From: Desulfuromonadales bacterium
GTDB taxonomy: Bacteria > Desulfobacterota > Desulfuromonadia > Geobacterales > Pseudopelobacteraceae
Reading direction: 5' to 3'
Length of the DNA: 63,248 nt
NCBI GenBank assembly: GCA_013349405.1
Contig: DUZS01000022.1
Location: forward strand, 1 to 63,248
Numbering within the stretch: position 1 is the first letter of the stretch; every line of letters starts with the position of its first letter. A program made the translations under genes and the position numbers. Below the pieces are notes generated by a model. That model saw only the letters and a list, made by a program, of their open reading frames with translations, was not told the origin of the DNA and searched no databases. Shown here piece after piece: positions 1,617 through 47,403 of the stretch.

Positions 1617-3014
1617 ATGAGGATAATCACGAAAATATGCATGGCACTGGCGTTCACGATACTGGGGGTGTTCGTATACCCTGAGATAAGCCACAGCCAA
1701 CTGGTCTCTGGGTCACTGGCACCTTTGTTTACTTTGAAGGGCCTCGACAACAAAACGTTTAATCTTGGCGTAATGAAGGATAAACCACTTACTATTCTGT
1801 ATTTTTTTGATATGGGATCACAGTCAAGCGAGAAGGGTCTCAATAGTCTGAATGCGCTGGCACGTAAGCATAAGATGGATATCAGCGTCTGGGCAATTAC
1901 TGCTGCGCCACGTGAAAAGGTCGCCCAGTTTGCGGCAATGCACGGGGTGGCATTCGCCATTCTCCCTGACGATGAAAATGTTAACGCCCTCTATCAGGCG
2001 CGGCAGATCCTCCCGGTCGTTTGCATTATCAGCACGGGCCTGAAGATTGCTTACTACGAGCAGGGATGGCGCCCGACAACGGAAACCAAGCTGACTGAAT
2101 TGATTGAACAGGTATTGAAGACGCAAGCAAAGCTTGATCGTGGAAAAAGTGTTCCGATTATTAAGCCGCCGCCCAAGCCACCTGTATCTGTACCGCCTAA
2201 GCCGCAAGTGCCGGTACCTGTCGGGTCGCCAACCCCGTTGCCGGCACCTGAACCAGTACAATCCGGCTTGACCGATCCGACGACGGGGATGGCATTTATG
2301 CCGGTGAAAGGTGGATGTTTTGAGATGAGAAGTCCCCTTGGAGAAAACATGCCGGGACAAGAGGTCTGCGTGAAGGATTTCAGTATGGGAAAGTATGAAG
2401 TGACCGTCGGTGAATATCGAAAATTCACCAAGGCCACAGGAGGGAATTATCCGCAGTGGGAAGAGGTCGGGAGCAAGTACAATGTGAATACCGGGAGTGA
2501 CAACCATTACCGGAAACTTAAAAACGCCCTGACCGACGATAGGAATCCGGTGGTGGGCATATCGTGGTTTAATGCGGTGGCGTTTGCCGATTGGTTGTCG
2601 CGCCAAAGCGGCGGGCGGGTGTACCGTTTGCCGTCAGAAGCGGAGTGGGAATATTCCTGCCGAAGCGGCGGTAAGGATTTTAAATATTGCGGCGGTGATG
2701 CCGTTGACGCTGTTGCGTGGAATTCCGCAAACTCGGGTGGGACAACACATAGAGTGGGGCAAAAGAGCGCCAACGGCTTAGGCTTGTATGATATGGGCGG
2801 AAATGTATGGGAGTGGATGGACATAGATGGTGCAGGTACAAGCGACCAAAAACAGGATCTGCAGGGGCCGGCAAAAAGTTCTACGCGCGTCATTCGCGGC
2901 GGAGGCTGGGACTCTGACCCTGTAAACGCTTTTTCATATGTGCGTGAATTTGTTACTCCGGGAATTCGCAGCAAAGATCTGGGCTTTCGCCTGATCCTCC
3001 AAGATCCGGATTAG
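1617..3014 (+). CDS. Secreted cysteine-less thioredoxin-fold / FGE-sulfatase (SUMF1-like) fusion
   Basis: A 465-residue protein. Residues 1-27 look like a signal peptide. Residues about 30-160 have an AhpC/TlpA-like thioredoxin fold, but the usual CXXC position reads DMGSQSS, so the domain cannot do dithiol chemistry. A Pro-rich linker (about 180-220) leads to an FGE-sulfatase domain (about 222-462) with typical features: MGKYEVTVGEY, RLPSEAEWEY, GLYDMGGNVWEW, RVIRGGGW and LGFRL at the end. The C-terminal cysteines used for formylglycine formation are not seen, so a binding or sensory role is likelier. In Pseudomonas the FGE-domain protein TagR acts upstream of the T6SS kinase PpkA; a similar role here is inferred from nearby phosphatase, kinase and FHA genes. 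The same thioredoxin-like domain occurs at 11342. Confidence 0.85.
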   Translation: MRIITKICMALAFTILGVFVYPEISHSQLVSGSLAPLFTLKGLDNKTFNLGVMKDKPLTILYFFDMGSQSSEKGLNSLNALARKHKMDISVWAITAAPREKVAQFAAMHGVAFAILPDDENVNALYQARQILPVVCIISTGLKIAYYEQGWRPTTETKLTELIEQVLKTQAKLDRGKSVPIIKPPPKPPVSVPPKPQVPVPVGSPTPLPAPEPVQSGLTDPTTGMAFMPVKGGCFEMRSPLGENMPGQEVCVKDFSMGKYEVTVGEYRKFTKATGGNYPQWEEVGSKYNVNTGSDNHYRKLKNALTDDRNPVVGISWFNAVAFADWLSRQSGGRVYRLPSEAEWEYSCRSGGKDFKYCGGDAVDAVAWNSANSGGTTHRVGQKSANGLGLYDMGGNVWEWMDIDGAGTSDQKQDLQGPAKSSTRVIRGGGWDSDPVNAFSYVREFVTPGIRSKDLGFRLILQDPD

Positions 3015-5179: not shown

Positions 5180-5914
5180 TTACGTTTCGTTAATTTTACA
5201 GAGGACAACAGTGATGTTATCTTTGCCGCCAGCTTTTTTAGCCGCTTCTATAAGCTGTTCAGCCTTGTGATCGAGAGAAAGTGAGGATAATAGAATTGCA
5301 CTTATAATGGTGTCCTCAATCATATCGGTCAAACCATCAGAACAAAGTAGAAACAGGTCGTGCACAAAAGTGTTGCCACGCAGTATGTCGAGTGAAAAAT
5401 CTAGTTCCATGCCAACAACTCTAAGTACGATGTTCCTTTTAGGGTGTACACGTGCCTCTTCTGCCGTTATGGCCCCTCCGTCCAACTGCATTTGCACCAG
5501 TGAGTGGTCTTTGGTCAATTGCCGTAATTCGCCATTTCTGAACAGATATATTCTGCTGTCACCAACGTGACCGATTATGTAACGTCCATCGACAAACGCC
5601 AGCAATTCACCGGTACAGCCCATCCCCGCATTATCAGGGTTTTGAATCACATGTTCAATTATCCGGTTGTTTGCAGCATTGAATGTCTGCTTAACAAGCT
5701 GATAAACAGCATCTTCGGTAGCGAGGCAAGCAGCACCAAAAAAATCTTGAACCGCAGTAACGAATATATTGCTGGCAACTTCACCGGCAGCAGCACCCCC
5801 CATCCCGTCAGCTACAGAGACAACCCGCTTGTCTGCCATGATAACAAAGGCATCTTCATTGTTTGAGCGGCGCAGACCAACATCTGTTGCTCCTGCAGTT
5901 TCAATAATGGGCAT
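5180..5914 (-). CDS. PP2C-family Ser/Thr protein phosphatase
   Basis: A 244-residue stand-alone PP2C (PppA/Stp type), predicted cytoplasmic. Metal-binding motifs are intact: SNNEDAF near the N-terminus, VADGMGG (about residues 34-40), GHVGDSR in the middle, CSDGLTDM and GGKDNITVV at the end. The start at 5914 (ATG behind GAAAGAG) is preferred to an upstream in-frame TTG. It is divergent from the CsgG-like gene and has a strong promoter at 5983-6011. It probably reverses phosphorylation by the kinase at 10106 and so would switch the T6SS, as PppA does in Pseudomonas; the pairing is inferred from proximity. Confidence 0.93.
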   Translation of the reverse strand: MPIIETAGATDVGLRRSNNEDAFVIMADKRVVSVADGMGGAAAGEVASNIFVTAVQDFFGAACLATEDAVYQLVKQTFNAANNRIIEHVIQNPDNAGMGCTGELLAFVDGRYIIGHVGDSRIYLFRNGELRQLTKDHSLVQMQLDGGAITAEEARVHPKRNIVLRVVGMELDFSLDILRGNTFVHDLFLLCSDGLTDMIEDTIISAILLSSLSLDHKAEQLIEAAKKAGGKDNITVVLCKINET

Positions 5915-5982
5915 AGTCTGCTCTTTCAAAGAGTAAATTATTTGCTCGGCTTCATCACCGGAATCAAAAAAACACTGTTGTA

Positions 5983-6361: not shown

Positions 6362-7330
6362 ATGATGATGCGACGAACTATGCTGCCGGCTGTACTGATC
6401 CTGCTGGTATGCGGTCTATCAGTCCTCAAAGCGCATGCATCCGGACAGGTCGTTACGCATGAAACGAGGGAATGGGCAAAAAAAACTATTGAGAACGAGC
6501 GATCTGTTGCCGGGACTCCCGCCAATAATGCCCTTGCTGTCCTCTATTTTATCAACCGGACCGGCAGAATTGAACTCGACCCGATGCAAAAAGGGATGAC
6601 TCTGATGCTGCTGACGGATCTGTCGCAGGTGCCCAATCTCCAGCTCGTAGAACGGATTAAACTTCAGGCGCTTGCTGAGGAGCTTGGGCTTGGAAGTTCA
6701 GGCCTGGTGGATCAGAAAACAGCTCCCAGAGTCGGGAGGCTGGTTGGCGCCCGATTCATCTCAGGAGGTGACTTTGTCGGAAGAAACGAAGCTCAATTTG
6801 ATACCCGGTCGCGGCTGCTTGATGTGACCTCCACAGAAATATCGGGGCAGTTTGCCCTGCCCGGCACCCTTAATGAAATTCTTGCAACCGAGAAAGAGCT
6901 CGTTTTCAAAATTGTAAATACTCTGAAAATCAGCCTTAAACCGGAGGAGGAGGCTGCGATTCGCAAACCCTGCTCTACCCGCATGAAAGCTCTGGATTCA
7001 CTGTTCCGTGGCGTTGACGCCAGCGACCGGGGGGAATACCAGCAGGCAGGGGAGCTTTACAGTGAAGCGCTGAAGATCGATCCTGACATCTGTGCTGCTG
7101 CTTCAGCACTACAGGAACTGATACGTATGGGAGGGTATTCCGATAGCTTGAAAGGCAAAGGGGTTACGGCAAAGGCTGATATCTTTGCACCCCGGTCAGC
7201 CTTGGTGGACGCTGCGTTCTCTGTCAGCAGCCAGACATCGCTTACCAACCAGATCGTGCATAAGGAAGTGTTACCTAATTCTGCACCAGCCGCTACAACA
7301 CGGATCGGAATCAACGTCACCTTTCCGTAA
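6362..7330 (+). CDS. Secreted CsgG-like protein with TPR-like tail
   Basis: A 322-residue protein. The start at 6362 is chosen because AAGGGGG precedes it and a clear signal peptide follows (cleavage near AHASG). Residues about 50-180 form a CsgG-type domain: AVLYFINRTG, NLQLVERIKLQAL, then LGLGSSGLVD and VGARFISGG. A TPR-like unit follows (EYQQAGELYSEALKIDPD). CsgG forms the outer-membrane pore of curli secretion, but many CsgG-fold proteins are periplasmic or lipoprotein accessory factors. There is no lipobox cysteine, so this one is probably soluble periplasmic. It starts a seven-gene block with two more CsgG-like domains (12590-12900 and 13281). Confidence 0.8.
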   Translation: MMMRRTMLPAVLILLVCGLSVLKAHASGQVVTHETREWAKKTIENERSVAGTPANNALAVLYFINRTGRIELDPMQKGMTLMLLTDLSQVPNLQLVERIKLQALAEELGLGSSGLVDQKTAPRVGRLVGARFISGGDFVGRNEAQFDTRSRLLDVTSTEISGQFALPGTLNEILATEKELVFKIVNTLKISLKPEEEAAIRKPCSTRMKALDSLFRGVDASDRGEYQQAGELYSEALKIDPDICAAASALQELIRMGGYSDSLKGKGVTAKADIFAPRSALVDAAFSVSSQTSLTNQIVHKEVLPNSAPAATTRIGINVTFP

Positions 7331-7399
7331 TTATTTTTACTGTATCCGGAGCACTCTTCGGATGTCTGCTTCTCATTCCTTGCGTCAGAGGGAAATTTT

Positions 7400-8530
7400 A
7401 TGAAAAACACGAAACAGCGGTTCCTGCTGCAGATAGTAGTGCTGATGCTTTCCTGGTGTCCTGTCAACTCTCTGGCGATGGACCGGCAGCTTCAAGCGGG
7501 CGCCACATTCGACTGGTGGAAGGATAACGACAATGCCAGTGCCAGTCAGCTCACGTTTCCGCTGCTGTTCACGGAAACCATAGACAACCTCTCCGTGCGT
7601 CTGATCACCGCATTTACCAGCACCTCGCTCTCCACCGGATCAAAGGACATCTCGATGAGCGGTATGCTTGACACCAAGATAGGGGCCACATACCGCCTGA
7701 CGGATACGTTCCCTTTTGAACTCCTGTTCGGGCTTGATTTCAACCTGCCAACCGGCACGACAAATCTGTCGAAAGACGAAACCCGTCTGGTCATGGACCC
7801 TGACCTGCTGCCGATCAACAGCTACGGCGAGGGTTTCAACGTCAACCCCACCATCACCATCGCCAAAGGGTGGAACAACTGGACTTTTGCTCTCGGGTTA
7901 GGCTACCTCTGGCGCGGTTCATACGATTTCAGTGCAGATCTCAAGGATTATCAACCCGGCATGGTCTTCAACACCCTCGCCGAAGCACGCTATTACTACC
8001 AGGCCAAAAGTTATGCCCGGATTTTTACCGGTTACACTGTCTATGGCACCGATACCGCAAACGGCAAAAATCTCCTCCAGGAAGGGGATGTCTTCCAGAT
8101 AGGTGGTTCTGTCATTCATGCCGTGAATCCTGATGTTATACTCACCGCCGGACTCAGAGGGATCATGCGCGGAGATACCACAGACTACACGAGAACCGCC
8201 ACAGACCAGAACCAGAACGCCTACAACGGTGACGAAATCATCATTGATCTCGGCGGGAGTTACGCCCTTGACAGCAAAACAACACTCACCATGCCGCTTC
8301 AGCTCCGCTTCATGGCCGATAACGGCAACAGCGGCGACAGACACGTCGGAGCCAAGAAGAAATACTCCCTCGGAGCAGGAATATCGAGGGAAATCACTCC
8401 CATACTTTCCGCTGATTTCACCCTGAAAGGCTATTACAAGCACGATGACCCGACACGTATCCCGGAAGCGTATAACGCGCGAACCTTTACCGGTGCTGGC
8501 ATTGCAGCATCACTCACGGGCAGATTCTGA
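7400..8530 (+). CDS. Outer-membrane beta-barrel protein, unknown role
   Basis: A 376-residue protein with a signal peptide (about residues 1-27), then alternating amphipathic strands rich in Tyr, Trp, Gly, Asn and Thr, with a terminal Gly-Arg-Phe. The C-terminal aromatic residue is the usual outer-membrane assembly signal. It resembles porin or transporter-like barrels in general; I cannot assign a family. It lies 69 bases after the CsgG-like gene and 14 before a lipoprotein gene, suggesting one transcription unit and an envelope complex. The substrate is unknown. Confidence 0.75.
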   Translation: MKNTKQRFLLQIVVLMLSWCPVNSLAMDRQLQAGATFDWWKDNDNASASQLTFPLLFTETIDNLSVRLITAFTSTSLSTGSKDISMSGMLDTKIGATYRLTDTFPFELLFGLDFNLPTGTTNLSKDETRLVMDPDLLPINSYGEGFNVNPTITIAKGWNNWTFALGLGYLWRGSYDFSADLKDYQPGMVFNTLAEARYYYQAKSYARIFTGYTVYGTDTANGKNLLQEGDVFQIGGSVIHAVNPDVILTAGLRGIMRGDTTDYTRTATDQNQNAYNGDEIIIDLGGSYALDSKTTLTMPLQLRFMADNGNSGDRHVGAKKKYSLGAGISREITPILSADFTLKGYYKHDDPTRIPEAYNARTFTGAGIAASLTGRF

Positions 8531-8544
8531 AAGGAGGAGACCCC

Positions 8545-9066
8545 ATGTATACGAGACTGACTACAACTGTGGCATTTACCCTGCTTTACGCGCTCCTTCT
8601 GAGCGGCTGCGGCAGTTCGCCCACAGCATCCACCAGCTCAAAAGGCAGTTCGCTGGTCACGGTATCAATAGACGGCAACGGTAAAACCGCTTCGCTCAAA
8701 GTAAGGCCGGCCACTCTCCTCGCCAGGACAGAGCTGGAACTGAAGCGGGTCTTGCGTGAGAGCCTGGCGTATGCGGCACCGTTCCCGGAGACGGTGCAGA
8801 AAGTAAGGGTCACCGTTACGGGTGCAGATATGCAGGCCAGCATCCTTACCTTGAATCTGCCACCCGGCTTGAACGAGGCGGTAACCGGCAGCCTTGAAGT
8901 TCCCAACGGCGCTGCGCGTATCTTTACGGGCGAACTGCTCAATCTGGATAACATACCGGTCTATCGGAAAATATCCGAACCGTATAACCTTGTTGGTGAA
9001 CCGGTAACCGTATCGTTTTCCGGTTGGGAGACCACGGCACAACTCGGTACCGCTCTGGTCAATTGA
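8545..9066 (+). CDS. Lipoprotein, unknown function
   Basis: A 173-residue protein behind a very strong ribosome site (AAAGGAGGAGA). The signal sequence ends in a lipobox, LLSGC, with Cys at about residue 22, followed by a Ser-rich tether. The rest is predicted beta-rich with no motif I recognise. It is probably anchored in the outer membrane beside the barrel encoded just upstream. Confidence 0.75.
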   Translation: MYTRLTTTVAFTLLYALLLSGCGSSPTASTSSKGSSLVTVSIDGNGKTASLKVRPATLLARTELELKRVLRESLAYAAPFPETVQKVRVTVTGADMQASILTLNLPPGLNEAVTGSLEVPNGAARIFTGELLNLDNIPVYRKISEPYNLVGEPVTVSFSGWETTAQLGTALVN

Positions 9067-9176
9067 ATGAGATCTGACAGAGTCGCAGCTTTGAAATCAG
9101 GGGGGGCCGCTTTATGAAAGATTGCCATCAGTGAATTTTCTCGTTCTCATTCAGATTTGCTCAAGGAAGACCAACC

Positions 9177-10106
9177 ATGAAGCTGCTTCTTTCCGTATTA
9201 ACACTCCTGATGCTGCACTGTTCCATTGGCACCAGCCTCGGGAGTGGCGCGGGCAGCTTCGGTAATTACCCCCTTCCTCTTATCGAGGTGGAGATACTTC
9301 TTACTAAATGGCTGAAACAGGAGAAATATTCGGTCTCTTCCAATGCGCTCTCAAACGGTGAAATCGTTCTGAGCGCCACAGCCACCGGGAAAGTAATCAG
9401 AATTTTAATGAGGTCTCATTCGCCACTGGCCACGGATATTGAGCTGCTGGAAGCTGCCGGAATCGAGGATGTGGCCGCAGTCAGGTCCTCCTGGGAATTA
9501 TCCCTGTCACGAGTGGGAAAAGCTGAAAGCGCGGCAACAATCCCCGAACGGATCAGGTCATTGGCCGATGCCGTTGTCTGTATCAACTCTCCCCCTACAG
9601 ACGAAAGAAAACTCAATTTCACCGGCTTTCTCATTGACAAGAGTGGCACCATTGTAACGATCGCCCATGATTTAGAAAAATTCAGTAATTTCAAACTAAC
9701 ATTTTCATGGGGCGATGTTACTGAAGGGCATGTGCTGAAAAGAAGCAGAGACAAAGACCTCTCGGTTATCACGTCATACCAGAGGGGATACAGTGCCTTT
9801 TTTCCCTTGAAAGAGGGACGATCAAAGTTGCATTTCGGAGAGCGCATCTATATGCTTCACTGTAACAGTAGCGGTGACATTCAGATTCAGGCAGGCGAGG
9901 TGGACAAACCGAGGGCGAAGGTTAACTCTCAGGCTCTGTTGCAGGTAACGCTTGAAAACGTTTTCCTTGGCAGTAGCGGCAGCCCGGTCGTTGATGAGAG
10001 CGGCAGATTTGTCGGTGTGGTCAAGGGTCGATTCAGGGGCATGGAGACCCGGGGGTTCCTGATACCGTTTGACACGGTGAGTCCCTTCGTCGGAACGGGA
10101 AGATAA
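9177..10106 (+). CDS. Secreted trypsin-like serine protease
   Basis: A 309-residue protein with a signal peptide (about 1-21). Residues about 25-115 form an N-terminal region of unknown fold. The protease domain has a recognisable triad: His164 in TIAHD, Asp194 in DKDLSVI and Ser267 in GSSGSP. There is no PDZ domain, unlike DegP/HtrA. It should act in the periplasm, perhaps cleaving a component of the neighbouring envelope proteins; the substrate is unknown. The stop overlaps the start of the kinase gene (TAATG), so the two are translationally coupled. Confidence 0.82.
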   Translation: MKLLLSVLTLLMLHCSIGTSLGSGAGSFGNYPLPLIEVEILLTKWLKQEKYSVSSNALSNGEIVLSATATGKVIRILMRSHSPLATDIELLEAAGIEDVAAVRSSWELSLSRVGKAESAATIPERIRSLADAVVCINSPPTDERKLNFTGFLIDKSGTIVTIAHDLEKFSNFKLTFSWGDVTEGHVLKRSRDKDLSVITSYQRGYSAFFPLKEGRSKLHFGERIYMLHCNSSGDIQIQAGEVDKPRAKVNSQALLQVTLENVFLGSSGSPVVDESGRFVGVVKGRFRGMETRGFLIPFDTVSPFVGTGR

Positions 10107-11326
10107 TGAACATCGGAAGATACCGGATTATTGATGAAATCGGCAGGGGAGCAATGGGAGTCGTATTCAAGGCCCACGATCCGAACCTCGATATCATCCT
10201 GGCGCTTAAGGTGCTGAGAAAGGAACGGCTTACAAATGAACCTTTCGTGCGCAGGTTCATGGCCGAGGCGCGGGCACTTGGTCGACTCGACCACCCTGAG
10301 ATCGTCAGAGTCTATAATGTTGATCAAGATGGTGATGAGGTCTATATCGCCATGGAATTCATCCAGGGTGAACCAATTTCTGCGCTGATGAAAAAACAGC
10401 TGTTTACTCCCGATGCAATCGCCGAATTTGGTTCGAGAATGGCAGAAGCACTTGACTATGCACATAAGAAGGGCATCATCCACCGCGATGTCAAGCCGAG
10501 CAATATTCTCTGCACTCAGGAAGGCAGGCTCAAGATCACCGATTTCGGGATTGCCCGTATCGAGGACCCCTCCAAGGCAGAGGAAACCCAGGCAGGTGAG
10601 ATACTGGGCACTCCGGCCTACATGTCACCGGAGCAGGTACTTGGACTACCGGTTGATGGGAGATCGGACCTGTTTTCCCTCGGGATTATCCTGTACGAAA
10701 TGGCAACCGGTTCGCGCCCGTTTCAGGGGCAGGGAATGAATGCCATCTTCAATGCCATCACCAACGATGATCCACACTCGATTCACACCATCAGCCAGAC
10801 AATACCCAGGCAACTCTCCGATGTTATTATGAAATGCCTCCGTAAATCCCCGGAAGCTCGTCACGCCGACGGCCGGGAACTTGCCACTGCGTTGCGTTCA
10901 TCTATAACAGCATCTGCACCGGTTGCTGCTGTTGCAACTGTTCAAAAAGAAAAATCCGGAAAGCACACTGCGGTGCTGGCCGTCGCCGGAGTGCTTGTTG
11001 CGGTCGCTATTACTGTATTTCTACTGATGGGGCGCACTTCTCCCCCGCCCGCAGCACCTGCAGTAGCAGGAACACCGTCACCGACACCGCCGAGTGCTGT
11101 CGCACAGAAGTCAGCCCGCTTGAAAGCGGAGAGCACGCCCGCCGGTGCTACGCTCTATGTGGACGGCGTTCAGGCTGGATTTACACCCAATACCGTATCA
11201 CTTGTACCGGGCAAACATGAATTGATTATCAGTCTCCCCAATTATGACAAGTGGGAAGCGCAGGTTGAATTTGAAAAGGGAACAGAAACCCCGGTTTCAG
11301 TGACACTTTCTCCATCAGGAAAATAA
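10106..11326 (+). CDS. Transmembrane Ser/Thr protein kinase with periplasmic PEGA domain
   Basis: A 406-residue PknB-type kinase. The kinase domain (about 6-265) is complete: glycine loop GRGAMG, Lys35, catalytic HRDVKPSN with Asp128, DFG at 146-148 and MSPEQ at 173-177. One membrane helix (about 290-312), a Pro/Ala-rich linker and a PEGA domain (about 338-400; STPAGATLYVDG) follow, so kinase and PEGA lie on opposite sides of the inner membrane. PEGA domains often bind cell-wall or surface ligands. Likely targets are FHA-linked proteins of the T6SS, as with PpkA. It is coupled to the upstream protease gene, which suggests that proteolysis or an envelope signal feeds the kinase; this is an inference. 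Confidence 0.95.
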   Translation: MNIGRYRIIDEIGRGAMGVVFKAHDPNLDIILALKVLRKERLTNEPFVRRFMAEARALGRLDHPEIVRVYNVDQDGDEVYIAMEFIQGEPISALMKKQLFTPDAIAEFGSRMAEALDYAHKKGIIHRDVKPSNILCTQEGRLKITDFGIARIEDPSKAEETQAGEILGTPAYMSPEQVLGLPVDGRSDLFSLGIILYEMATGSRPFQGQGMNAIFNAITNDDPHSIHTISQTIPRQLSDVIMKCLRKSPEARHADGRELATALRSSITASAPVAAVATVQKEKSGKHTAVLAVAGVLVAVAITVFLLMGRTSPPPAAPAVAGTPSPTPPSAVAQKSARLKAESTPAGATLYVDGVQAGFTPNTVSLVPGKHELIISLPNYDKWEAQVEFEKGTETPVSVTLSPSGK

Positions 11327-11341
11327 CATGGGGGCTTAGTT

Positions 11342-13279
11342 ATGAGAATAAACATCGGTTTTCTGATAGCGGCATTGACCATCCGCCTGTTTGCGCCTTC
11401 AACCGGATGTGCCGAGGTGACCATTGGAGCGGTTGCGCCGGGATTTAATCTTAAAGACGTAAACGGCACGTCGTACTCCCTTACTCAGATGAAAGATTCG
11501 CCTCTGACAGTGATCTACTTCTTCGATGTGGAATCACGATCGAGCCAGGAAGGACTCCTCAGCATCAACCAGCTTGTTACTTCAAGCAGGTCCGACCTCA
11601 AAGTTCTTGCGATAACCGGATCTCCACGGGAAAAGGTTGCCCAGTTCGTAAAGATCAACAAGCTTGTTTTTCCCGCGCTGCTTGACTCCGGTCAGGTCAG
11701 GAGTGAGTACAAAGCCAGGCAGATTCTGCCGGTCATCTGCACCCTGGGACCCCGGTTGAAGGTGATTGACCTTTTCCAGGGGGGGGGTAAGACAACCGAA
11801 AAAATGCTTTCGAGACTTGCTGAGCGAGAGCTGCAACGAAAAAACAGTAGCATGGCCAAGGCCATCAGCAGGGAAGTAACACGAAAGAATCCGAAGAACC
11901 TTGATGCTCGCAAGGTCACAGCAGCTGCCTCTACACGGGATGGCGACCTGAAAGCTGCTGAAGCCGAGTGCCGGAGTATCATGAGTGATGGTGCGGAGGG
12001 AGAGGTACAGGGCAAGGAGTGCCTGGCGCAGGTCTACCTGAAAAAAGGGAAGTTTGACGATGCGCTGAAACTGGCACAGGAGGTAGAGAAGGCCGATCCG
12101 GAACGTTCATTTGCGCATGTTATCAAGGGTGATGCTCTGTATGCCAAGAACAGAAAGAGTGAGGCCAGGGCAGAGTATGAGAAGGCAACGAAAAAAAAGT
12201 CATCCGCCCCGTATGAGGATGCTGTTCCCTACAACCGCCTTGGCAGACTTAATGATGCCGCCGGAAACAGGAAAGAGGCCAGGGAGATGTTTGACAAGGC
12301 GGTAACCATCGACCCGTATTATGTTGAAGTCACTACCAATAAGGGCTTGAGCTTCGAATCGGAGGGGAAGTGGGACCTTGCCCTGAAGGCATACCGCCAG
12401 GCACTGGAAATTGATAAGAACGATATTTATGCGGTTGCGCTGGCACGAAGGGCAGAGGATATGCTCAACTTGCAAAAGGATACGGACCGCTCGAAAAGAG
12501 TGGACCAACTGGTAAAGGACCTCGCCGCTCGCTTCAGGAACCAGAAAATTGATTCCAGACAGGAAGATGAGTGGACCTCGCGCCCGATGGTCATGACAGT
12601 CATTGACTTTGAGGAAAAGGGAGGTATGACGGAACGGAGTGGTATGTCTGCTGTATTCTCAACCGAACTTACCAGGTACCTTAATGCGTCCGGAAGGGTT
12701 AAGGTTGTGGAGCGCGCACTTATGGACCGCCTGCTTGGCGAGCTGAACATCGGAAGCTCGGAACTTGCAGACCCTGCCACGGCATTGAGGCTGGGAAAGA
12801 TTCTGGCCGCAAAGCTGATCGTTACCGGCTCGATGATCCATCAGGCGCAATCTACAGCAATTTCGTTCCGGCTGATCGATACCGAGACGTCGGATATCCC
12901 CCAGACGACCATCAGGCAGCTTGGCCCCACATCGTTTTTTGACCAGGAACTATTCCAGTTCAACCGGGACATCCTGAAAACGGTGATTAACAAATATCCG
13001 CTGCGCGGCTATATCGTTAAGAGTGCCGGCAATGAAGCGGTCATAAATATTGGTGCCAGCCAGGGGGTTGTGCCCGGGACTTCTTTCGATCTGCTGGAAG
13101 AGACGAAGCCGATCGAATTCAAGGGGAAAACGCTCCACTCAGCACCAAAGGTCATCGGCCAGTTGGAGGTGGTACGGGTAGAGACAGATCTGGCGTACGT
13201 CAAGCCGGTCAGCAAAGAAATGAACCTCCCTCCTGAGGCCAAAATCCAGGAACGTCGTGCCGAAACAGCCGGGCAATAA
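11342..13279 (+). CDS. Secreted thioredoxin-fold / TPR / CsgG-like fusion
   Basis: A 645-residue protein with a signal peptide (about 1-22). A thioredoxin-like domain (about 25-165) lacks the CXXC pair (DVESRSS), exactly like the one in the protein at 1617. TPR repeats run from about 175 to 385. A CsgG-type domain (about 415-530) contains VKVVERALMDRLL, LNIGSSELAD and AKLIVTGSM. A C-terminal beta domain (about 560-640; GASQGVVPGT) follows. It is predicted periplasmic. A run of nine G at 11779-11787 lies in the coding sequence. It is separated from the kinase gene by 15 bases and from the next gene by 1 base. I know of no characterised protein with this order of domains. Confidence 0.8.
   Translation: MRINIGFLIAALTIRLFAPSTGCAEVTIGAVAPGFNLKDVNGTSYSLTQMKDSPLTVIYFFDVESRSSQEGLLSINQLVTSSRSDLKVLAITGSPREKVAQFVKINKLVFPALLDSGQVRSEYKARQILPVICTLGPRLKVIDLFQGGGKTTEKMLSRLAERELQRKNSSMAKAISREVTRKNPKNLDARKVTAAASTRDGDLKAAEAECRSIMSDGAEGEVQGKECLAQVYLKKGKFDDALKLAQEVEKADPERSFAHVIKGDALYAKNRKSEARAEYEKATKKKSSAPYEDAVPYNRLGRLNDAAGNRKEAREMFDKAVTIDPYYVEVTTNKGLSFESEGKWDLALKAYRQALEIDKNDIYAVALARRAEDMLNLQKDTDRSKRVDQLVKDLAARFRNQKIDSRQEDEWTSRPMVMTVIDFEEKGGMTERSGMSAVFSTELTRYLNASGRVKVVERALMDRLLGELNIGSSELADPATALRLGKILAAKLIVTGSMIHQAQSTAISFRLIDTETSDIPQTTIRQLGPTSFFDQELFQFNRDILKTVINKYPLRGYIVKSAGNEAVINIGASQGVVPGTSFDLLEETKPIEFKGKTLHSAPKVIGQLEVVRVETDLAYVKPVSKEMNLPPEAKIQERRAETAGQ
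11779..11787 (+). repeat. Homopolymer tract of nine G inside a coding sequence
   Basis: Nine consecutive G encode the Gly-rich turn after LFQ in the thioredoxin-like domain. Loss or gain of one base would truncate the protein at about residue 150, before the TPR and CsgG-like parts. Such tracts are prone to slippage. Confidence 0.85.
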
Positions 13280-13280
13280 T

Positions 13281-13763
13281 ATGCGGTCGCTCCAACAGAT
13301 ACTGCTCCTCGCCATCGTTCTGCTGCTTGCAGGGTGTTCCGGGATAACGCCCCGCAACGGCGGGCCGCCCGGAGTTGCTGTCTGGGAGCTGGAGGATCTT
13401 TCTGCAGATGGGCGGCTTGCCCATGCAGGAGAGCTTCTGGCGACGCAGATAACTGATACTCTCGGCAAGCAGGGCAAATACGTCGTTGTGGAGCGCTCAA
13501 GGCTCATCAGAATACTTGAAGAGCAGCAGCTGTCAGCTTCATCCCTTGCTGACCGCCAGACACAGCTGAGGCTGGGTGCATTGACAGGTGCCCGGTATAT
13601 GGTATTTGGAGGCTATCAGATCTTTGGCGACATTGTGAGGATTGACATTCGCCTTGTCGATGTTGAAACAGGAACCATCCGCAAGGCTGTCAAGAAGGTC
13701 GTTACCTCCACAGACCTGCAGACTCTTCTTGATGCGGCACAAGCTGCGGCCGCAGAGCTGTAA
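13281..13763 (+). CDS. CsgG-like lipoprotein
   Basis: A 160-residue protein with a signal sequence ending in the lipobox LLAGC (Cys at about residue 16). The body is a minimal CsgG-type domain: YVVVERSRLIRILEEQ, LSASSLADRQ, LGALTGARYMVFGG and IRLVDVETG. The start at 13281 is preferred to an in-frame ATG 24 bases upstream, which would add a hydrophilic extension before the signal. It ends the seven-gene block and is convergent with the FHA-transglycosylase gene. Confidence 0.82.
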   Translation: MRSLQQILLLAIVLLLAGCSGITPRNGGPPGVAVWELEDLSADGRLAHAGELLATQITDTLGKQGKYVVVERSRLIRILEEQQLSASSLADRQTQLRLGALTGARYMVFGGYQIFGDIVRIDIRLVDVETGTIRKAVKKVVTSTDLQTLLDAAQAAAAEL

Positions 13764-13859: not shown

Positions 13860-15410
13860 CTAATTATTAACCATGCCGGATGACACAGGCTGTACCTGTC
13901 CGGTTGGCAGGGGAAAATTTGGGCAGACAACATCTGCGCCGAACAGTTTGGGATTTTCGCAAATCACCGCTGCAGAAAAAATAAGAAACACGTAGTCATA
14001 CGTCTCTTTCGGGATGTTTTTCTGGGCAAGCAGTTTCCAGAAATTACGCTCCCGGGGATTTTCCGGCATTCTACCAATCATCTTGCGGACATTGCCATCA
14101 CCCCAGTTGTAGGACGCCATGGCCAGAAGTCCCGACGCCTGAGCGTCGCTGTTATTAAGATCCTTCAGGTATCTGGCAGCCGCCACAGTGGCCTTCCGAT
14201 AGTCAAATCGCTCATCAAAGGGGTCGTACACGGGCTTTTCAAACATTGGTCCGATGCGGAGTCCGTAATCGTTAGCGGTCAGAGAGATGAACTGCCACAT
14301 TCCCTTTGCGTGACCGTATCTGGTGAGTGGCCCCACAGCCCGGTCATCAAAATTACTTTCCTGCATGGCAAGGAAGAAGTACTGATAGGGCAGGTTATTG
14401 TCCTTCAACAGCTGAATTATCAGCGGCGTATAGCCCTTCTCCTCTGCCCTCTTGAGCGCTGTCTGCAGCCTGTCGGTAGACTTCCAGATAGCAATATAGC
14501 GCTTGACCTCCGCCACAAAGTCTTTTGGCATGCTCAGCTCGCACTCCCCGAATACCCTGGCAATCCGCATGATAATGCGATCCTCGTCAGAAAGTTTGGC
14601 GTAAATGCCCAGCTCCTTAACAAAGGAGTCGTACTCCTTTTCCATCCCTTTTGATTTGTTCCTTTTCGCCTTCAGTTCCGCCATCTGGGCAGGGTTGGTA
14701 GTTAAGAGAGCAATTTCTTCCAGTTTGCCAATCTGGACTTCCTGCTCCTTCATCATATAGAAGATGTTTTGGGCAGTGGCCCGCATCGCATCCAGTTTGT
14801 TCTGCTGAAACAGAATAACGCCACCAGAAACAGCAAGCAGCAGCACCGCTACGCCGATCAGCCAGAGATACTTTTTCGATTTCTTCTTGTGGGCCTGTTT
14901 GAAGGCCTGCCGGAACATCATTGTCTGTTCACTGGCATCTTCAGGTGCGTTATCAGAAAAATAGCGGTGCAGTTTTTGGGAATCGGTCTTCTGTGGAGGT
15001 TGGGGTCCCGTAACTTCAGAAATCTTTTCCGGAGCGGAGCTATGTAAAACGCGAACGGTCTCCCGCACCGGTTCCTCAAACTTCTCGATACGCAGAGAAA
15101 TTACCGGCCCTCCAATTCCCAGTTCAATTGAACACCGATCGGTCAACAGCATCTCAGTGATTCGCACTCCATCAAGAAAGGTGCAATTGCCGCTCCCCAG
15201 ATCTTTCAGCAGCCAGCCATCAACAGTAGGTTCAAGCGAGGCATGGCGGCGGCTCACTGAAGTTTCACTGATCTGCAGTTCGCACCCGTCTGCTCTCCCT
15301 ATGGTGAAGGGTGCAGAGAGACGCTTCTCCTCCGGAGAAGCATTCCCCTTCAGGACTGCGGCCACAATGGTGCTGCCAATGAAATCAGGATGTGAGTTAG
15401 AGGCGGTCAT
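13860..15410 (-). CDS. FHA domain / transmembrane / lytic transglycosylase fusion
   Basis: A 516-residue protein. An N-terminal FHA domain (about 15-105) keeps the phosphothreonine-binding residues GRA (38-40) and SRRHA (53-57). A basic stretch and one membrane helix (about 181-203) follow, then a coiled coil (about 205-265). The C-terminal part is a soluble lytic transglycosylase (SLT) domain with catalytic Glu351 in AMQESNFD, GHAKGMWQF and MASYNWGDGN. The order puts FHA in the cytoplasm and the enzyme in the periplasm. It could open peptidoglycan locally for the T6SS baseplate, since TssL here has no peptidoglycan-binding domain, with the FHA part reading the kinase signal. It is the last gene of the T6SS-oriented run. 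Confidence 0.9.
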   Translation of the reverse strand: MTASNSHPDFIGSTIVAAVLKGNASPEEKRLSAPFTIGRADGCELQISETSVSRRHASLEPTVDGWLLKDLGSGNCTFLDGVRITEMLLTDRCSIELGIGGPVISLRIEKFEEPVRETVRVLHSSAPEKISEVTGPQPPQKTDSQKLHRYFSDNAPEDASEQTMMFRQAFKQAHKKKSKKYLWLIGVAVLLLAVSGGVILFQQNKLDAMRATAQNIFYMMKEQEVQIGKLEEIALLTTNPAQMAELKAKRNKSKGMEKEYDSFVKELGIYAKLSDEDRIIMRIARVFGECELSMPKDFVAEVKRYIAIWKSTDRLQTALKRAEEKGYTPLIIQLLKDNNLPYQYFFLAMQESNFDDRAVGPLTRYGHAKGMWQFISLTANDYGLRIGPMFEKPVYDPFDERFDYRKATVAAARYLKDLNNSDAQASGLLAMASYNWGDGNVRKMIGRMPENPRERNFWKLLAQKNIPKETYDYVFLIFSAAVICENPKLFGADVVCPNFPLPTGQVQPVSSGMVNN

Positions 15411-19038: not shown

Positions 19039-20106
19039 TTATGCCGCCGTAACCGCCACTGCCCCGCAGACGCCGCGGTCAGAAGAGCAGGTTACCAGTG
19101 CCGGGCTGCGACGATATCCTTTGCGGATGCCGATTGCAGCCAGGGCAGCCAGGATGATGCCGCTGGCGGCGCCGGTGTCTCCGATGCAGTCGGCAGGGTG
19201 ATGTGTGCCATATGACGGATCAAAAGCGGCATTGTTCCGCATAAAAGCTACTCCCATCTCTTTTGCCCAGTGGTTCTCACCATTCATTGATGAATACAGT
19301 TCCCTGATCGGCTCCGTCACACTGCCGGCGCTGAAGAGTCCCGTAAACGCTCCGGCCAGACCGTCACCCCGATAAGGTATTTCACTGTTATAAAGATGTC
19401 CTGCCTCAAATCCGATTGACACCGGGGAGAGAGCACCAAGAGGAGTCATACCTTTTGAATTTGCCCGATTATGAGCGGTCAGAAGCAGAAACGCGGCTCC
19501 TTCGCCGGGAATAAACCCGTCCATGATCCCCGGCCCGATGATTCTCTCCTCCATATCCAGCGTACCAAGGAGATACAGATCGAGGAAGGTGTCCACCCCT
19601 CCCACCAGAACCGACTCCGCCGTGCCCGCTGCAAGATGATCAATGGCCTCTTTTAGTGCCACCAGACCGGCACCCCTCCCGACCGGGAAGACACGACTTG
19701 CGGCCAGATCAAAATCAACTTCGGCCTGAGTGGCAAGCTGTTGAAGAAAATGCTCGGAGATCGGAGCAGGGCGATTCTCAAGCGGTTCGGCACCGGCAAG
19801 ATAGAGCGGAATTCGCTTCAGCCCTGGAACTCCTTCTATCGCCTCCTGCAACGCCGGGGTCGCCAAACGCAGCATCCGGATCTGCCGCGACGTGAGCCCC
19901 GAAACCTTCTCCAGTTCAGGTGACAGGGGAGGAAGGACATCGTCGGGGAGAATTGACATGGTAAAGGGTTGAAACCGACGGTCATAGATAGAGGTTTCAC
20001 CGAAGCGGTCAACTCCTGCCCGCACTGAAGCAGCCGTTTGCGGGGCGTTGAGCCCCACGGCGGTAATCATCCCCATCCGTATGATGATTGCGCCAGGATC
20101 CGCCAT
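19039..20106 (-). CDS. Ketosynthase-like (thiolase-fold) protein without catalytic Cys, T6SS-associated
   Basis: A 355-residue protein with beta-ketoacyl-synthase fold features: an N-terminal GMITAVGLNAPQTAA, VLVGGVDTF, GEGAAFLLL, and C-terminal GDTGAASG where ketosynthases have GHTLGAAG. The active-site Cys of normal enzymes is replaced (FPVGRGAGLVAL), so fatty-acid condensation is unlikely. Such proteins often occur beside DUF2169 and PAAR-like genes in T6SS loci; their role is unknown. The start at 20106 overlaps the DUF2169 stop (TGATG). Confidence 0.8.
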   Translation of the reverse strand: MADPGAIIIRMGMITAVGLNAPQTAASVRAGVDRFGETSIYDRRFQPFTMSILPDDVLPPLSPELEKVSGLTSRQIRMLRLATPALQEAIEGVPGLKRIPLYLAGAEPLENRPAPISEHFLQQLATQAEVDFDLAASRVFPVGRGAGLVALKEAIDHLAAGTAESVLVGGVDTFLDLYLLGTLDMEERIIGPGIMDGFIPGEGAAFLLLTAHNRANSKGMTPLGALSPVSIGFEAGHLYNSEIPYRGDGLAGAFTGLFSAGSVTEPIRELYSSMNGENHWAKEMGVAFMRNNAAFDPSYGTHHPADCIGDTGAASGIILAALAAIGIRKGYRRSPALVTCSSDRGVCGAVAVTAA

Positions 20107-21131
20107 CAGATCTTCTCCCCATTTACTATGAAATTTTTCAGTGCCACATCGATCTGACTGACCTTCAGTGTCTTTTTGTCGCACTCCACACCGGTTCGCC
20201 AGAACACGGAAATCCGCTCCTCGTCCGGCACGATCAGGACGGTATCCATGTTCATCTGCGCAGCGACTTTCGACCCGGCCATATAAACAACCGTGTCGAA
20301 CTCAACGAGTGGCATGGTAAAACGTATTGAACCGGCTGGAGATAGATTCTGGAGATACACCGGCTCCCCACCTTTCAGGAATCCTTTACAGATCAGTTCA
20401 GGATGGGCCGTGTTGAAAAAGCGCGGGTTGAAATCTTCCGGCAGGTACGGTGCACGTTGCTTTGTCCATGCTGCGTCGTAGGTCCCGGTAAGGGATTTCC
20501 GGGGTTCCCAGGTTGGTGAGATGTACCCTAACCCCACCGGCATCGGCCTGTCTCCGGGAAGACGAATCAAGTGTGCCGGATCTTCAAAATTGGGAAGCGG
20601 CCGACCGGCCATCTCCTGCAACGTCCGTTTCCCGGAGAAACCTTTTCCCACCGGATTACGCTCCTCAAACAGCACCGGATCTGTTTCATGCATACCCCCG
20701 AAGGCGCGCTCATACTCAAGGGGCATTTTCGAGAACGGGATCGGCGGAGATATCTTCAGCTCCTGATTATTGCCGATCCACTGCCGGTCACCGAACACCT
20801 TTATCACCCTGTTAACCGGCCCCACCTGGAGCGTTACATCGAGCTGGGGGACGGGCCTTCCTCCGGGAGCATGAACTGACCCGACCAGCACAATATCGGT
20901 GAACGGTTTGGTCGGCAGGGTTTCATTGGCAAATGCAAGGCTTGAATTCTCCGGTTCTCCCCGGAACTGATCAGCCATCAGCAGTGGCAGCTGCTTCTCA
21001 GCAAGGGCAAGGCCCTGACTTTTTATCGCAAAGGTAGCCTTTGCGGTCACATATATGGTGTCAATTCCCTTTTCGTTGGGGAAGAGTGCGATGCCGACAA
21101 TGAACGGTGTGCTGTTTTTCAACTGCAGCAT
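20106..21131 (-). CDS. DUF2169 protein, probable T6SS effector adaptor
   Basis: A 341-residue protein that begins with the DUF2169 signature (NSTPFIVGIALFPNEKGID, then VTAKATF) and contains VLVGSVHAPGG, FSKMPLEYERAFGG and GLGYISPTW. DUF2169 proteins act as adaptors or chaperones for PAAR-linked cargo in characterised T6SSs. Here it lies between VgrG/DUF6484 and the ketosynthase-like, PAAR-like and nuclease genes, so loading of the AHH nuclease onto the spike is the obvious inferred role. No signal peptide. Confidence 0.88.
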   Translation of the reverse strand: MLQLKNSTPFIVGIALFPNEKGIDTIYVTAKATFAIKSQGLALAEKQLPLLMADQFRGEPENSSLAFANETLPTKPFTDIVLVGSVHAPGGRPVPQLDVTLQVGPVNRVIKVFGDRQWIGNNQELKISPPIPFSKMPLEYERAFGGMHETDPVLFEERNPVGKGFSGKRTLQEMAGRPLPNFEDPAHLIRLPGDRPMPVGLGYISPTWEPRKSLTGTYDAAWTKQRAPYLPEDFNPRFFNTAHPELICKGFLKGGEPVYLQNLSPAGSIRFTMPLVEFDTVVYMAGSKVAAQMNMDTVLIVPDEERISVFWRTGVECDKKTLKVSQIDVALKNFIVNGEKI

Positions 21132-46437: not shown

Positions 46438-47403
46438 CTACTTTTTAAACCCCTTCACAAATTTAGAAAAAAATCCCCCCTCTTCCATTTTTGGTAACGG
46501 GTTATCTTGAAATGCGGATGAGTGAGCTTCCTGAGCAGGCCATGAGGAAGACGGATTCTGTTCAACTTCTACGAGACGTCCCTCACCAATATATCTGAAA
46601 GTCGGCCCGCCGGGGCAGCACTCTATTTCGTCAAACGGCTTTAATTGGACCTCTGAATCCATTTTTTTTTGATTAACTGCAACGATGCAGGCGCCGGCAA
46701 GGTTCTTAACCCAATACTCACCGCAGGAATAGAATAACTGCAGATGACGTGTGCTTATGCCAGGATACTGGAGTACGAAATCCGCACCGGCATCCGATCC
46801 AATTACCACTGGCAGTTCGTTATAGGATTTAATAATTGGACCAAATTGAATGACCAGGGGCGCTTTTGTTTTCTCAACCGGCAAGACCGCTCTTGCTTGA
46901 ATTGGTGTTGTCGGTTGAATCGGCTGTGGCTGTCGTTGTGGAGGGGTTTCGGTCGCAGGATCCCTCAAAGGCTCGTCATGAACAGTTCGGGCAGAAACTT
47001 GCGGACGAACCGGATCTGCTTGTGGAACCAATGCTGGGGGCTTGTTGGCATTTGCCGAAGTCTCTTCTGTAATTTCGGCGTGGAAGCTTACTTTTGGGCC
47101 ACCAGGCCCTATTTCGAGGACATCGCCGCTTCGCAGAAACGTGGCTTCGCCCGCACGCTTTCCGTTGACAAACGTCCCATACGTACTGGTGTCTATTAGT
47201 CTAAACTGATTGCCTTCCCGTTGAATAGTAGCGTGATTCCTGGAGACCCCTTCTTCTGCAGGGGGAAATTTCACCGAGCAGTTCTGTTGCCTGCCGATAG
47301 TTACCTGATCCGTCACAAAGGTGCTGATTTCCCCTTTGAGGGAGCCTTGAATGTGAATCAGCTGTATTTCATAACGGGGAGCCTCTCGCAAAATCGAAGA
47401 CAT
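46438..47403 (-). CDS. Protein with two FHA domains, T6SS-associated
   Basis: A 321-residue protein. The first FHA domain (about 20-110) is complete with IGRQQ and SRNHAT and the TYGTFVNGK turn. A Pro/Gln-rich linker (about 120-180) follows. The second FHA (about 190-280) has VVIGSDAGAD in place of the GR motif but keeps STRHLQL, so phosphothreonine binding may be lost. The C-terminus is basic (FSKFVKGFKK). It is the first gene of the T6SS locus and probably a reader of the kinase at 10106. AGAGG is five bases before the start. Confidence 0.88.
   Translation of the reverse strand: MSSILREAPRYEIQLIHIQGSLKGEISTFVTDQVTIGRQQNCSVKFPPAEEGVSRNHATIQREGNQFRLIDTSTYGTFVNGKRAGEATFLRSGDVLEIGPGGPKVSFHAEITEETSANANKPPALVPQADPVRPQVSARTVHDEPLRDPATETPPQRQPQPIQPTTPIQARAVLPVEKTKAPLVIQFGPIIKSYNELPVVIGSDAGADFVLQYPGISTRHLQLFYSCGEYWVKNLAGACIVAVNQKKMDSEVQLKPFDEIECCPGGPTFRYIGEGRLVEVEQNPSSSWPAQEAHSSAFQDNPLPKMEEGGFFSKFVKGFKK

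Follow-up and report, generated by a model that had tools for sequence, protein, structure and literature searches.

A conserved kinase and envelope-protein gene block that probably acts as an accessory module of a type VI secretion system

Gene content of the locus

We analysed a 63,248-nucleotide stretch of a Desulfuromonadales bacterium genome (assembly GCA_013349405.1, contig DUZS01000022.1, positions 1 to 63,248; hereafter the window), in which seven co-oriented genes between 6362 and 13763, named here g1 to g7, form a block that combines a kinase with envelope proteins. The genome comprises 3.43 Mb in 60 contigs and is 96% complete. Downstream of the block, on the minus strand, lies a cluster for a type VI secretion system (T6SS), a contractile injection machine, encoding TssA, B, C, E, F, G, H/ClpV, J, K, L and M, Hcp, VgrG, TagF and two FHA proteins, with TssM and TagF scoring just under the NCBIfam cut-offs. 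We interpret the block, at a probability of roughly 0.62, as an accessory module of this neighbouring T6SS that works like the T6SS threonine-phosphorylation pathway, with an envelope arm of its own. All seven genes of the original prediction are present at the span it gave:

6362..7330, plus strand: g1, exported protein with a CsgG/LpoB-superfamily domain and TPR
7400..8530, plus strand: g2, outer-membrane beta-barrel of ~16 strands
8545..9066, plus strand: g3, small lipoprotein with no Pfam family over the cut-off
9177..10106, plus strand: g4, probably periplasmic trypsin-like (HtrA-type) protease (Trypsin_2, 49.8 bits)
10106..11326, plus strand: g5, Ser/Thr (Hanks) kinase (Pkinase, 191.4 bits; PEGA, 58.5 bits)
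11342..13279, plus strand: g6, signal-like start, redox-dead thioredoxin-like domain, TPRs, and FlgT-like middle and C-terminal domains
13281..13763, plus strand: g7, CsgG/LpoB-like outer-membrane lipoprotein of 160 amino acids

Export of every product except the kinase, as originally proposed, agrees with the N-terminal features of g1, g2, g3, g4 and g7 and more weakly with those of g6: g1, g2, g4 and g7 have hydrophobic N-termini, g6 has a weaker signal-like start, and inspection by eye showed lipobox-like motifs in g3 and in g7. The kinase has a single internal hydrophobic helix at ~290. For g7, the longest open reading frame starts at GTG 13257, and the lipobox-bearing start at ATG 13281 was taken as correct. 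The reported TAATG overlap of g4 and g5 was found at 10104-10108, and a 4-base g4-g5 overlap occurs again in 15 of 38 measured loci, in which start codons were set mechanically. The span first described omits a divergent PP2C phosphatase gene (5180-5929) and a farther thioredoxin-FGE gene (1617-3014), listed here with the FHA genes of the window:

5180..5929, minus strand: PP2C phosphatase, divergent neighbour, Stp1/IreP family over the cut-off
13860..15410, minus strand: FHA and lytic transglycosylase (SLT) protein (Pfam FHA, SLT), first gene on the T6SS side
46438..47403, minus strand: FHA2, two-FHA protein (Pfam FHA, 97 bits), here at the distal end of the T6SS cluster
1617..3014, plus strand: exported thioredoxin-like and FGE-sulfatase fusion (Pfam)

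Conservation and synteny

The g6 thioredoxin-TPR-CsgG fusion belongs to a large family, with at least 683 relatives at E ≤ 0.001 in a protein search in which the best 7998 candidates were scored; the 120 relatives listed share 51-90% identity with g6 across 78% or more of its length. A scan of genome contigs located 78 g6 loci, mostly in records titled Deltaproteobacteria, Desulfo- taxa and Nitrospirota-type taxa (L and G numbers below denote loci and genomes), and the closest block relative among the named loci was in the metagenome-assembled genome JAQTZV010000012.1 (Desulfuromonadaceae bacterium), whose g6 is 88% identical.

Neighbours were counted in the main-family loci L004-L076 with enough flank by single-sequence phmmer, which undercounts. 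Directly after g6 lies g7 in 58 of 59 loci, a kinase gene stands at most 2.2 kb before g6 in 43 of 56, and g4 is within 3.5 kb in 40 of 50. Upstream of g6, PP2C was found within 4.5 kb in 22 of 48 loci and FHA2 within 6 kb in 17 of 45; downstream, g1 or g2 occurred within 8 kb in 21 of 32. The block therefore consists of a core, g4-g5-g6-g7, often joined by PP2C and FHA2, and a second unit of g1, lipoprotein and g2. By our own count, 35 loci show g1 or g2, and in 30 of these the second unit is encoded on the other strand; in the window it is co-oriented with the core and upstream of it. Elsewhere PP2C often immediately precedes g4, and in many loci the FHA2 gene is divergent from PP2C. The distant loci L077-L081 showed g7 in none of five, and g4 and PP2C in none of the four with enough flank. 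Co-occurrence across genomes had been suggested as a check, and g4, g5, g7 and g1 or g2 do recur around g6 across loci and genomes, leading us to reject a chance grouping. No description of this block was found in open-licence literature, including the available portions of PMC2660368, PMC10553843 and PMC10482370.

Association with type VI secretion

Within a phylum sample of 395 genomes, TssK was detected in 44 and g6 matches in 29. True g6 was set at 44% identity or more (23 of the 29 matches, from 9 families), a split that, like the one on g1 E-value below, was made after the lists were seen; six distant g6-like proteins (31-34% identity) were counted apart and placed among the 372 other genomes. 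On this basis tssK was present in 21 of 23 true g6 carriers (91%) versus 23 of 372 other genomes (6%) (Fisher p = 1.2e-20, uncorrected for phylogeny). None of the six genomes with distant g6-like proteins had TssK, and adding them as carriers gives 21 of 29. Matches to g1 at 1e-25 were found in 32 genomes: the 21 strong ones (E ≤ 1e-99) had TssK in 20 and g6 also in 20, and TssK was found in none of the 11 genomes with weaker matches. TssK was likewise present in 34 of 42 genomes drawn from the 78 available g6 loci, a set that overlaps the phylum sample.

TssK and g6 share one contig in eight of the 21 carriers, 5.7 to 59 kb apart, and five of these were examined further (G388, G228, G427, G143 and G106). 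The order in G388 is g7 g6 g5 g4 PP2C / FHA2, followed directly by VgrG and T6SS genes. VgrG lies ~8 kb from the block in G228 and 5-10 kb in G427, with T6SS-associated genes between, and T6SS genes begin ~16 kb (G143) and ~51 kb (G106) from the block. The block also adjoins T6SS structural genes in L008, L044 and L058. In L053 (Desulfopila sp. IMCC35008) TssK is ~30 kb away from it. The FHA-SLT protein was found near the block in L004, L009, L024, L033, L039 and L053.

Among 58 close relatives, TssK occurred in nine (one a fragment) and full g6 in two (G000 and G031), both with TssK. Six relatives with full-length TssK lack g6, and the module is therefore optional for the T6SS. Five of these six showed no g4-g7 block or PP2C within ~9 kb of the outermost Tss genes (G006 was left out of this check, its contig being too short), and G030 and G052 retain FHA genes at T6SS loci without g6.

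Phosphorylation components

By its sequence, g5 is a putatively active Hanks kinase with one transmembrane helix, a periplasmic PEGA domain and intact catalytic residues; K35, D128 and D146 are kept in 57 of 58 aligned rows, the remaining row being a gap, in an alignment drawn from 53 loci that includes some second kinases. In L004:12669-15322, L009:2851-7074 and L013:2-2547, a second kinase neighbours a further conserved lipoprotein not far from the block, an arrangement not seen in the window.

If kinase and phosphatase act on FHA partners, such partners are encoded in the same locus. The present genome is a clean test case, since g5 is its only Hanks kinase over the cut-off (a second match falls below), the window PP2C is its only PF13672 match and all three FHA matches, in two genes, lie inside the window. 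Its sole TssK and its only three CsgG matches (g1, g6 and g7) are also located there.

The protease g4 is related to HtrA/Deg, and its catalytic triad His164-Asp194-Ser267 falls in columns that read H, D and S in 49 of 49 relatives. In the distant loci L068 (7861-8727) and L078 (6848-8218), a trypsin-TPR fusion protease (Pfam) stands beside the kinase.

CsgG/FlgT-type domains

The block had been described as containing three CsgG-like proteins, and Pfam CsgG (PF03783, cut-off 20.8 bits) is indeed over cut-off in g1 (25.9), g6 (30.6) and g7 (48.7), with best stretches spanning approximately positions 36-100 of the 210-position model. Profile comparison relates these domains to one another (g7-g6 99.6%, g1-g6 97.7%, g1-g7 98.6%), and they share the alpha/beta domain of the superfamily that includes curli CsgG, LpoB, PelC and the TolB N-domain. 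The label nevertheless needs refining, as the predicted fold of the g6 C-terminus is closest to FlgT, the Vibrio flagellar H-ring protein, and the modelled C-terminal half has the fold of the FlgT middle and C-terminal domains in the same order; weak Pfam FlgO and FlgT_M matches fell under the cut-off. The lipoprotein g7, whose lipobox Cys19 is invariant in a 38-row alignment, resembles FlgO in being an outer-membrane lipoprotein with a related domain, and a FlgT-like modelled fold next to such a lipoprotein suggests a ring or collar. Unlike FlgT, g6 had no FlgT N-terminal domain called and carries a thioredoxin-like domain and TPRs there instead, and unlike FlgT and FlgO the block sits with T6SS, kinase and phosphatase genes. 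No flagellar neighbourhood appeared among the recurrent neighbours, although no model search was aimed at flagellar genes.

The thioredoxin/AhpC-like domain of g6 has SxxS instead of CxxC: of 68 non-gap rows, 65 have S65 and 61 have S68, and a cysteine anywhere at positions 56-75 occurs in only 4 of 77 aligned rows. With its redox cysteines replaced, an active thioredoxin or peroxiredoxin was rejected for g6. The thioredoxin domain encoded at 1617-3014 is 42.9% identical to that of g6 over 147 amino acids (BLASTP) and also has SxxS for CxxC; a gene matching this fusion lies directly before g4 in L044. We assume a likeness between the FGE gene and TagR, which we take to have such a domain; open-licence literature yielded no paper on TagR with formylglycine and type VI secretion.

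The second unit

The barrel assigned to g2 was borne out by a confident AlphaFold2 model, with a mean predicted local distance difference test score (pLDDT) of 91.0 and ~16 long strands by our own count. Foldseek matched it to FadL, AlgE and CymA at E ~1e-8 to 1e-9 with TM-scores near 0.4-0.5, and 57 homologues, g2 itself included, were among the matches listed, several with PF13557. Homologues of g3 are lipoproteins of variable length beside g1 and g2: the g3 profile matches proteins of 250-1520 amino acids in eight loci, two of which (L004 and L009) supplied the profile itself, and a g3-type gene lies between g1 and g2 in L009, L010 and L063. In the closest relative (L004:3836-7791), the interval between g3 and g4 contains genes for two exported-looking, motif-sharing proteins, which we presume to resemble DUF1566, and for a lipoprotein.

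Interpretation and rival explanations

Among known systems, the block comes closest to the T6SS threonine-phosphorylation pathway (PpkA, PppA, Fha), with which it shares a transmembrane Ser/Thr kinase with a periplasmic domain, PP2C and FHA proteins beside a T6SS, and the possession of envelope partners. Those gene-content features of the pathway that could be tested, namely a kinase, PP2C and FHA in the locus and T6SS association, were all found. The block differs from the PpkA pathway in the PEGA domain of its kinase and in its envelope partners, which here are the three CsgG/FlgT-type proteins, the trypsin-like protease, the barrel and the variable lipoprotein, and we therefore take it as a variant of the pathway. 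Envelope inputs feeding PpkA include TagQRST in Pseudomonas aeruginosa and RtkS in Serratia (PMC10482370), and the outer-membrane protein TssW of Acidovorax citrulli binds PpkA and TssM (PMC12607579); we set these inputs apart from the block without a sequence search for them.

The original prediction saw in the block an envelope-sensing device feeding T6SS phosphorylation. The T6SS co-occurrence and the PP2C and FHA partners favour the link to phosphorylation, whereas for sensing and signal direction we infer only that this conserved kinase-envelope gene set, a frequent companion of the T6SS in environmental bacteria, probably tells the T6SS when or where to assemble. In such a scheme, the related CsgG/FlgT-type domains of g7, g6 and g1 would join these proteins into a scaffold or ring in the periplasm, close to the outer membrane, and surface presentation of the variable lipoprotein g3 may fall to the barrel g2 together with g1. 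Changes in the g1-g6-g7 assembly, perhaps via the protease g4, would be read by the periplasmic PEGA part of g5, which would phosphorylate T6SS partners to be read by FHA proteins and reset by the PP2C phosphatase. A bolder version, which we hold to be possible but doubtful, is that T6SSs of Thermodesulfobacteriota, Nitrospirota and relatives have a collar on the outer-membrane side, made of three co-encoded CsgG/FlgT-type proteins, that has a redox-dead thioredoxin as its head and displays a variable surface lipoprotein through a barrel, and that a dedicated circuit of protease, kinase and phosphatase links machine assembly to the state of the collar.

Several observations weigh against a T6SS role. 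TssK is missing from four genomes that carry full-family g6 (G059, G065, G066 and G069), of which the last three also lack VipB and G059 has a VipB-like open reading frame; as G066 is a chromosome-level record, either T6SS-free use of the module exists or the T6SS was lost. T6SS-free use is possible in L018 (CP070632.1, a chromosome-level Nitrospiraceae metagenome-assembled genome), which has g5-g6-g7, PP2C, several FHA and, ~8 kb further, g2, with no TssK or VipB. Four distant Hydrogenedentota-type genomes combine the kinase and g6 with no TssK, TssK-less close relatives have proteins similar in the C-terminal domain (41% in G002, 29-33% elsewhere), the adjacent kinase is missing in 13 of 56 loci, and the block and TssK are far apart in two complete Desulfosarcina genomes. 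The TssK-less carriers and Hydrogenedentota-type relatives, together with an HtrA-like protease whose triad is intact, could point to a general sensor of envelope stress, based on a Hanks kinase, that is unspecific to the T6SS and happens to persist in T6SS-rich lineages. We consider this distinctly unlikely given the difference in TssK rate between carriers and non-carriers, the closeness of the block to T6SS loci in several families and the FHA partners in the same locus.

Also unlikely is an outer-membrane export or display unit in which g1 with its TPR, g7 as a PelC/CsgG-like lipoprotein and the barrel g2 move or display a variable lipoprotein or polymer, the kinase regulates export and the T6SS is merely a frequent neighbour. 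The likeness of the barrel to FadL, AlgE and CymA, the PelC dodecamers among the g6 domain fold matches, the g3-related lipoproteins of very different size by g1 and g2 and the further exported-looking proteins of L004 would all suit such a unit, but the barrel fold matches are generic, no polysaccharide synthase was seen among the ten window proteins scanned with Pfam, and g1 itself co-occurs strongly with TssK. A curli-type secretion channel built on CsgG pores is highly improbable, in line with the original view that the block does not fit curli secretion. In its favour, Pfam CsgG is over cut-off in three proteins and the g7 profile hits CsgG chains weakly (E 0.001); yet the g6 C-terminal model matches FlgT and TolB better than CsgG and has no long insertion for pore hairpins of CsgG size, its loops between the strands at 93-128 being 4-7 residues, g7 has 160 amino acids versus 262-285 for CsgG chains, and the conserved partners are a kinase and a phosphatase. 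CsgA, CsgE and CsgF were absent from the Pfam results for the ten window proteins, with no genome model search made for them.

Only in few bacteria is it known how extracytoplasmic input activates T6SS kinases, and the described cases use other envelope partners. As an accessory T6SS module, the block would be an alternative input that is widespread among mostly anaerobic and often uncultured phyla, and it suggests that a flagellar-type ring protein was recruited to another envelope machine.

Further observations

PADLOC gave only single-component matches (kinase models including PD-T4-6 and mad6, RT-Protease_XI, TPR, and PDC-M21C for PP2C) and no system, and a defence system was rejected. A 520-amino-acid protein with VipA (small) and VipB (large) sheath signatures adjoins the FHA2 gene on the minus strand of L005 (4149-5714) and L034 (4188-5759), and weak TssC matches occupy the same place beside FHA2 in L006, L033, L043 and L059. 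Behind VgrG in the window (19039-21131, minus strand) lie a 3-oxoacyl-ACP-synthase-like gene and its neighbour; the T6SS loci of G030 and G052 have this pair in the same position relative to VgrG.
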